From assembly GCF_015694705.1 (NCBI RefSeq), contig NZ_JADQDR010000012.1:1-64000 (forward strand): a stretch of DNA of 64,000 nucleotides, in the 5' to 3' direction. A model generated the notes under the pieces. That model searched no databases. It saw only the letters and a list, made by a program, of their open reading frames with translations, and was not told the origin of the DNA. Source of the DNA: Pontibacter rufus (GTDB lineage Bacteria > Bacteroidota > Bacteroidia > Cytophagales > Hymenobacteraceae). The translations under genes were made by a program, and so were the position numbers. Positions 1,582 to 32,993 of the stretch are shown here, one piece after another (position 1 is the stretch's first letter; each line of letters begins with the position of its first letter).

Positions 1582-1622
1582 CCAACCACCCCTAATCTCT
1601 CCTTTTCTAAGGAGGGGATTTT
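1582..1622 (+). repeat. Solo copy of REP-like palindrome
   Basis: This is a 41-base element beginning CCAACCACCCCTAA with a stem whose arms read CTCTCCTT and AAGGAGGGG. It matches the repeats that bracket the DUF559 gene at 32465-32949 at all but about five positions. It stands alone between tsaB and the S41 protease gene, with no nuclease gene beside it. The rest of the 280-base spacer holds several TATACTT words and no gene. Confidence 0.8.
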
Positions 1623-32349: not shown

Positions 32350-32464
32350 GTTTTATACTTTGATTGGTGATGGTTATACTTGCTTTGGCAGCTATACAGC
32401 TGTACGGCAAGTTAGTAAATTCTGGTTTAGCGCGTTTTAGTATTTAACTTTTTACAGTCCCAGT

Positions 32465-32505
32465 CCAACCACCCCTAACCCCTCCTTGTCTAAGGAGGGG
32501 AATTT
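32465..32505 (+). repeat. Left inverted repeat of the DUF559 cassette
   Basis: Begins CCAACCACCCCTAA and contains the 9-bp stem CCCCTCCTT/AAGGAGGGG with a 4-base loop (GTCT), ending AATTT. The hairpin plus single-stranded tail resembles REP sequences. Confidence 0.88.
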
Positions 32506-32548
32506 ATAGTTTGCCACTGTTGTATGGGTGTAGCAAACATTCGTGAAG

Positions 32549-32902
32549 ATGACACTACACAACAGGAGATATCTGAAGGAAAATCGCAAAGAATTAAGAA
32601 ATTACTCAACTCCGGCTGAAGGAGAACTATGGAAGTATTTGAAAGCAGGACAGCTACACGGGCGTAAGTTCAGGAGGCAGCACAGCATTGGCAATTATAT
32701 TTTAGACTTCTACTGCCCTTCTGAGAAACTGGCGATAGAATTAGATGGCCATGTTCACTTGCATTCTGCCGCAGCCGAAGCTGATATGAAACGAGATAAT
32801 ATACTTAATGAGCTAGGTGTAAAGGTGCTACGTTTTGAGAACAAAGACATATTTCAAAACCTCGATGCGGTGCTACAGGAAATTTCAGAAAATTTCAAAT
32901 AG
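32549..32902 (+). CDS. DUF559 endonuclease-domain protein (PD-(D/E)XK/Vsr-like)
   Basis: A 117-residue protein of the DUF559 family, related to very-short-patch repair and type II-like nucleases. The core shows RNYSTPAEGELW (E24/E26), GRKFRRQHSIGNYILDFYC with D53, then IELDG with E64 and D66, and a C-terminal GVKVLRFENKDI. These fit the PD-(D/E)XK metal site, so it is probably catalytically active. A GTG at 32543 is an alternative start. It lies within a pair of inverted palindromes, which suggests it may cut or move them, by analogy with RAYT/REP pairs. Confidence 0.88.
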   Translation: MTLHNRRYLKENRKELRNYSTPAEGELWKYLKAGQLHGRKFRRQHSIGNYILDFYCPSEKLAIELDGHVHLHSAAAEADMKRDNILNELGVKVLRFENKDIFQNLDAVLQEISENFK

Positions 32903-32908
32903 ACAGTA

Positions 32909-32949
32909 AAATTCCCCTCCTTAGAAAAGGAGGGGTTAGGGGTGGTTGG
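32909..32949 (-). repeat. Right inverted repeat of the DUF559 cassette
   Basis: The reverse complement of the left repeat with one change in the loop (TTCT for GTCT). It begins 6 bases after the nuclease stop codon and ends about 45 bases before the uvrA stop codon; its hairpin may also terminate transcription. Confidence 0.88.
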
Positions 32950-32993
32950 ATACATCAGCCGCTCAAATCATACTTGTACTTCTATACTTTCCC

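Follow-up and report, generated by a model that had tools for sequence, protein, structure and literature searches.

In the 64,000-nucleotide stretch of Pontibacter DNA analyzed here (the window), a stand-alone DUF559 nuclease gene is bracketed by two inverted copies of an intrastrand-triplex (IT) motif, an arrangement that recurs across Pontibacter and in other phyla. The IT-DUF559-IT arrangement is probably a discrete selfish unit, here called the IT-REP system, in which the nuclease would recognize its own IT and spread it through cutting and copying by host repair. The initial annotation had suggested an undescribed system that mobilizes REP sequences; the idea of a system held up, and the movement of the repeats by the enzyme is what we infer.

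The features of the locus are given in Table 1. The gene lies between tpiA and uvrA, and the two 42-nt arms are inverted, 98% complementary and separated by 403 nt. The inverted repeats of 41 bases first described here, with their single change in the hairpin loop, proved correctly placed to within one base, and the 9-bp stem was recovered, as both arms fold as 9-bp hairpins in single-stranded DNA (z = -2.9 and -3.6, with 1 of 200 shuffles equally good for each). The G-rich strand of the left motif is the minus strand and reads CCCCTCCTT-loop-AAGGAGGGG-TTA-GGGGTGGTT, with the third strand pointing outward. The tail had been called conserved and single-strand-like; it is conserved, but it is more than single-strand-like, because GGGGTGGTT, on the outer side of each arm, is the mirror of the stem strand AAGGAGGGG with T opposite A, which is the purine-motif third-strand design. 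The arms thus contain the Y arm, R arm and mirror third strand that define the IT repeats known as BoxC, PIT or TM, and, judged by its sequence, each looks able to fold into an intrastrand triplex of the BoxC/PIT design. The available text of PMC4666352 reports physical triplex formation in vitro for TM-ECO, that is, for other sequences.

Table 1. Positions of the nuclease gene and the IT motifs in the window.
Feature	Position	Strand	Evidence or remark
Left IT motif	32464..32505	-	Inverted-repeat search, IT detector score 33.8, ssDNA fold
DUF559 (PF04480) PD-(D/E)XK-type nuclease gene, 119 aa	32543..32902	+	GTG start; ATG at 32549 possible
Right IT motif, left-arm sequence inverted, third strand outward	32909..32950	+	IT detector score 33.8, ssDNA fold
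Solitary IT motif of like design, slightly decayed	1583..1616	-	IT detector score 22.5

The combination CCCCTCCTT-gap-AAGGAGGGG was found twice in the window and in 0 of 100 shuffles. The IT detector gave seven hits of any score in the window, and 0, 0, 0, 0 and 1 in five 64-kb Markov controls. Both window hairpins (32914-32935 and 32479-32500) also resemble terminators on the strand that runs into the element, with AATTT after the stem, and they may additionally stop transcripts that come in from outside it.

DUF559 was present in 46 of 50 Pontibacter genomes. With an IT score of at least 20 and a distance within 350 bp (L027 was excluded for its short contig), IT motifs were found on both sides of 85 of the 129 loci, on one side of 25 and on neither side of 19, and the bracketing pair was inverted in 85 of 85. 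The third strands pointed outward in 48 of the Pontibacter pairs and inward in 37, a direction that appeared by eye to be mostly constant within a family. Control windows taken 635-1000 bp from the same loci had ITs on both sides in 0 cases, on one side in 1 and on neither in 125. Inverted repeats with a score of at least 15 were present at 118/129 DUF559 loci versus 0/126 same-locus control windows. Control ORFs were drawn from four locus sets (106 loci, two of the sets biased towards ITs) using an HMM filter that skipped 27 DUF559 ORFs; 0 of these 134 ORFs were bracketed by ITs and 46 had an IT on one side, from which it is seen that ITs are common between genes here. Long inverted repeats flanked 16 of the 134 control ORFs, all 16 within Y1/RAYT loci. 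Together, the shuffles, the Pontibacter-wide counts, the control windows and the control ORFs rule out a chance origin of the bracketed arms. Genes of the Y1_Tnp family, many of them RAYT-sized, occur in 43 of the 50 genomes and have their own non-IT inverted repeats, with scores up to 81.

The flanks of the Pontibacter loci fall into eight repeat families with different stems, one family being a single row. Family labels were set by flank patterns, with one-sided matches allowed and four rows unlabelled; before the tree was seen, B2 and B3 were merged into B and F and G into F, and single choices were made for L163, L175, L176, L251 and L256. On the nuclease protein tree of 129 rows, in which many forks are open and 17 of 126 inner branches are starred, the labels required 8 changes, compared with a minimum of 7 and a shuffled mean of 78.7 (0 of 200 shuffles as low). 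The loci form 68 site clusters, family A spanning 22 sites, C 12 and G 16, and six intergenic sites carry different families in different genomes. Because the changes on the tree are few, the site clusters many and some sites mixed, the repeat follows the nuclease lineage and not the site. A single copy was found in 84 of 104 genome-family combinations.

The third strand covaries with the stem. When nine Pontibacter stem types were paired with nine tail sets, the tails having been picked by G content alone, the identity pairing was the single best of 362,880. This result rests on the whole set, since some tails suit other stems well: the A tails score equally on the D stem and on their own (0.97), and the B3 tails match the F stem fully. 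At stem A positions, the third strand had T 205 times, A 97 times and another base 4 times.

Copies of the repeat are dispersed through the genomes. A genome-wide search had been proposed at the outset, and it returned 17 matches to CCACCCCTAACCCCTCC in the window's own genome (at most one mismatch, the two in the window included; reversed control 0), so the repeat does occur beyond the locus. These matches split into two types. Inverted pairs of the second type have a stem with GGAGGGG and the third strand GGGGTGGG (for example C15:397940-398016, C11:926197-926273 and C17:2494-2570); no matching DUF559 clade for the GGGGTGGG pairs was found in this genome, and we regard them as orphan copies or relics. 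Across Pontibacter, there were 0-141 copies of family A and 0-43 of family C per genome, with reversed controls at 0. The median for family A was 23 in the 27 genomes with a clade A nuclease versus 9 in the 23 without (p = 0.002), and for family C it was 10.5 in the 18 genomes with the cognate clade versus 3 in the 32 without (p = 0.002), where genomes are taken as independent and G028 is counted with clade A, as L164 sits there. Genomes without the cognate clade still have copies of its IT family, and the four Pontibacter genomes free of DUF559 have 1, 0, 8 and 0 copies of A and C together. Twenty pairs chosen from the listings for closeness are inverted IT pairs whose starts lie about 75-200 bp apart, too short for the nuclease gene, and such pairs are also present in the window's genome; one of the twenty has a single IT reaching the score, and one adjoins a DUF559 unit.

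From 80 relatives in named genomes, the best 13, being Pontibacter, were set aside and 8 that lay close to contig ends were dropped. All of the remaining 59 non-Pontibacter loci had an IT, on both sides in 43 (42 with an inverted pair) and on one side in 16; in their control windows (n = 47), there were 0 with ITs on both sides and 3 with one. The two-sided cases belong to eight named phyla, which are Bacteroidota, Acidobacteriota, Pseudomonadota, Fidelibacterota, Calditrichota, Ignavibacteriota, Verrucomicrobiota and Ca. Edwardsiibacteriota, and in a ninth, Ca. Fermentibacterota, an IT stands beside DUF559 on one side only. Since these 59 relatives were chosen by similarity, a wider Bacteroidota sample was taken, made up of the 60 highest-listed stand-alone DUF559 hits without an earlier locus. 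Of its 58 analyzable loci, 34 had ITs on both sides (32 inverted), 16 on one and 8 on none, and arms with an inverted-repeat score of at least 15 were found at 26 of 58; among the control windows (n = 57), 54 had none and 3 had one. Twelve further stand-alone loci of the phylum, outside the 60-locus sample and with five on cut contigs left out, gave 10 with both sides and 2 with none. The initial annotation had asked whether DUF559 genes in relatives might consistently lack flanking palindromes; relatives across Pontibacter and other phyla have them. In Acidobacteriota and in some Bacteroidota (L100, L101, L103, L104, L106, L109 and others), the loop that separates the stem from the third strand contains a second, variable hairpin.

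E. coli K-12 has one BoxC-like IT motif 168 bp from ycjD, on one side, and it is the sole IT detected in a 12-kb stretch. It has the TM-ECO type A design with TTA as second loop and is probably one of the 23 MG1655 copies counted in PMC4666352. In strain KE47, two ITs stand beside the DUF559 gene on the same side. A place matching 80% or more of the query, the fabI-sapF interval with ycjD, was present in 3333 of the 5426 E. coli genomes. In ATCC 25922, which is without ycjD, a TetR/RND/MFS efflux operon fills the interval and no IT with a score of at least 20 was found in the 2.7-kb piece scanned, so this strain is not a clean empty ycjD site. DUF559 matches were found in 40 of 72,556 plasmid records and 5 of 50,697 phage records. 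Sixteen of these loci (15 from the plasmid collection and 1 phage) were picked for variety, and 11 had an IT scoring at least 19 within 400 bp and 5 had none; the Photobacterium and Neisseria stretches among them are little informative, because another 16 and 6 ITs, respectively, lie within them. Of four cyanobacterial plasmid loci, three had short-stem hairpins only, and two further loci were without an IT.

The window ORF matched DUF559 (PF04480, E = 3e-33), and the only other Pfam match was MTES_1575. The residues D53, E64 and D66, which the initial annotation took as those of a PD-(D/E)XK nuclease, are D55, E66 and D68 when counted from the GTG start (the lower numbers apply if the start is the ATG two codons later), and they are invariant in 40 aligned homologues. 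A Pfam match above the cut-off, the D...ExD residues and the predicted fold together identify the protein as a PD-(D/E)XK enzyme of the DUF559 family. The best match of the AlphaFold2 model (pLDDT 89) was NGO0050, a putative endonuclease-like protein (48% identical, Z = 15.3), followed by the homing endonuclease I-Bth0305I (Z = 11.0) and Vsr (Z = 9.4); the match to TnsA (Z = 6.5) was weak and below the trust level. As modelled, the fold is of the Vsr/I-Bth0305I type. A YcjD profile finds Vsr in the available text of PMC1189080, and that of PMC12907096 reports that the SOS response seen in a Caulobacter methyltransferase mutant is due to the DUF559 protein VsrA. The dN/dS of 64 non-independent pairs had a median of 0.065 and a maximum of 0.15, which at the level of sequence indicates that the function of the nuclease is kept by strong purifying selection.

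DUF559 domains were also found inside host genes (L330, L332, L343, L348, L333, L335, L340, L354, L507-L509 and L519-L523). Of 12 such domains examined in long Bacteroidota ORFs, 11 were flanked by ITs on each side and the remaining 1 on a single side, and the edge ITs were translated in frame as peptides such as PLPLGEGRGG. Pfam assigned the hosts of ten fused cases to LeuRS (2), MetH, HsdR (2), HsdM, three other restriction or methylase proteins and an N-formylglutamate amidohydrolase, in which the DUF559 domain is at the protein end; a Pfam scan at E = 1e-6 found no intein domain in these ten. The restriction-protein cases may be plain domain fusions, and LeuRS and MetH are clearer.

A MetH-like match was present in 74 of 76 genomes of one family and was mostly uninterrupted. 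In the MetH genes read, the linker measured 60 nt in each of the 12 empty copies and 471-564 nt in the five filled ones, where part of the host linker is replaced; four of the five have ITs at both ends. Two other MetH linkers measured 99 and 75 nt, the former with apparent IT remnants. The LeuRS linker was 27-42 nt in nine empty genes and 411-630 nt in seven filled ones, which had ITs at both edges (2/7), one edge (3/7) or neither (2/7), and eight more linkers of 51-96 nt were without ITs. In other LeuRS genes (L452, L512, L513, L515 and L518), the linker carries different short, in-frame, repeat-like peptides, NVIASEAKQS and RHSELVSES. The linker sequences suggest that this position may be a hot spot for palindromic elements.

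On a tree of 35 MetH genes (5 filled, 2 scars and 28 empty), the states needed 5 changes compared with a shuffled mean of 6.8, and filled genes stood in three places, mixed with empty ones, on a tree with 3 of 31 inner branches starred. On the nuclease tree, the five MetH copies formed one clade (99*), and the seven LeuRS copies lay together on one side of a weakly supported branch (78). This pattern is compatible with a site-specific element that was gained repeatedly and with a single old insertion that was lost repeatedly; because the MetH tree is poorly resolved, one old MetH insertion with losses stays a candidate.

It could be that a free-standing, homing-type DUF559 cleaves sites that bear or resemble an IT and is copied into them, with the ITs spreading by other means. 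The fold of I-Bth0305I, the nearest characterized one, the grouping of the MetH and LeuRS nucleases, the intermixing of filled and empty MetH hosts and the six intergenic sites with different families all speak for such hitchhiking. It would leave unexplained why IT copy number tracks the cognate nuclease and why every nuclease clade, at many unrelated sites, comes with an IT family of its own, and the poorly resolved MetH tree also fits an old insertion with repeated loss; on balance, we consider it unlikely. A housekeeping or defensive role, in which a structure-specific DUF559 nuclease resolves IT triplexes or mismatches and the nearby ITs are regulatory or substrate sites, would agree with the Vsr-like fold, the strong purifying selection and the usual single copy. 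Presence and absence at many sites, siting inside housekeeping genes and bracketing by inverted pairs would not be predicted from it, and such a role is quite improbable.

Mobilization of the ITs by the RAYT (TnpA-REP) transposases of Pontibacter, with the DUF559 gene as a passenger, would draw on the wide occurrence of Y1_Tnp-family genes. Of 30 Y1/RAYT loci taken, 29 could be examined; no IT motif was found within 350 bp of any of them, and 15 had their own inverted repeats. Five genomes with DUF559 and with no Y1 match (G012, G031, G037, G046 and G048) have 22, 12, 1, 19 and 32 family A copies, respectively. Given that no IT was scored at the 29 loci, RAYT mobilization is rejected as the main cause and strikes us as very improbable. 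Ordinary bidirectional terminators flanking a small gene by accident, a reading suggested by the terminator-like stems of the window and the position between the uvrA 3' side and the tpiA 5' side, can hardly be the answer and are rejected as sufficient, since the T run beside the stem is absent in at least one family (L042 and L045), the 40/41 identity, the conserved third strand, the match to nuclease clades and the spread over genomes are unexplained, and the available text of PMC4666352 reports PIT/BoxC elements without terminator activity.

The selfish unit is the preferred reading. It draws on the observed pairing and cognacy of repeat and nuclease, the covariation of stem and third strand, the link to copy number, the presence or absence at fixed sites (within genes as well), the purifying selection and the nuclease fold. 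Each nuclease lineage, paired with its own IT family of hairpin and mirror third strand, would recognize the cognate IT in its single-stranded or folded state, as could arise on the lagging strand. It would then nick or cut beside the IT, or cut an empty target, and host repair would fill the break with a copy of either the whole unit or an IT pair alone; on this view, the solitary ITs and the inverted pairs are non-autonomous copies. No PD-(D/E)XK enzyme is known to rejoin DNA, and for this reason the copying of ITs must lean on the host and the proposed mechanism differs from RAYT chemistry and is nearer to homing. No target-site duplication was found at the sites compared, where the empty intergenic sites have diverged and the MetH linker is partly replaced. 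Joined-flank searches gave gene-free sites for L202 (in G023) and L043 (in G029), with intergenic DNA too diverged for the junctions to be read, and the L204 site in G026 has an apparent right-arm remnant and other ITs.

The initial annotation had compared the architecture to REP sequences with a RAYT but a different nuclease family. That comparison is supported; the repeats themselves are not tagged REPs and are of the intrastrand-triplex (BoxC/PIT) design. As in REP/REPIN and RAYT systems, short hairpin repeats occur singly or as inverted pairs around a usually single-copy nuclease gene, repeat families are paired with enzyme lineages and there are dispersed non-autonomous copies. In contrast to them, the window enzyme is a PD-(D/E)XK DUF559 protein and not an HUH/Y1 transposase, and the repeat is of the IT design. 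The REP tags named GTAG and CGTC in the available text of PMC3733652 are absent from both strands of the full window arms. The IT-DUF559 system thus works like REP/RAYT and is not a member of it, having no HUH enzyme and no GTAG or CGTC tag.

The BoxC/PIT/TM-ECO repeats share the C-rich arm, the G-rich arm, the mirror third strand, the inverted pairs and the unstable loci, but no enzyme is named for them in the available text of PMC4666352, whereas the families described here have cognate DUF559 genes. In that text, the authors never found mobility activities around the 23 BoxC/TM-ECO copies of E. coli MG1655. The Vsr-like homing endonuclease I-Bth0305I is the closest characterized fold and, similarly, there are site-specific lineages with filled and empty hosts; the window system, however, is without intron or intein, its gene being a stand-alone ORF, and is bracketed by ITs and usually free-standing between genes. 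The Vsr mismatch endonuclease shares the fold, but the window gene has tpiA and uvrA rather than a DNA methyltransferase as neighbors and is bracketed by repeats. Rickettsia palindromic elements are likewise palindromic repeats read in frame within protein genes; they are short and not known to encode an enzyme, whereas here the palindromes enclose an entire nuclease domain. The literature searched, whose scope stopped short of preprint servers and most subscription journals, yielded no link between DUF559 and palindromes, REP or triplex repeats. IT-DUF559 joins known IT repeats to a known nuclease family.

IT repeats occur widely among bacteria and have been linked to genome instability. We propose, tentatively and with less assurance than for the unit itself, that stand-alone DUF559 nucleases could be the hitherto missing enzymes that mobilize a pan-bacterial superfamily of IT repeats, E. 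coli BoxC included. They would recognize triplex-forming DNA, form a further class of nuclease-repeat replicators beside RAYT/REPIN and IS200/IS605, and have inserted entire in-frame segments into housekeeping proteins, LeuRS and MetH among them. A cognate nuclease makes IT spread directly testable in E. coli K-12, with YcjD and BoxC. If true, the proposal would give the DUF559 family a candidate function, would show enzymes that are matched to a triplex code in DNA, and would provide a route for mobile DNA to add in-frame segments to essential proteins.
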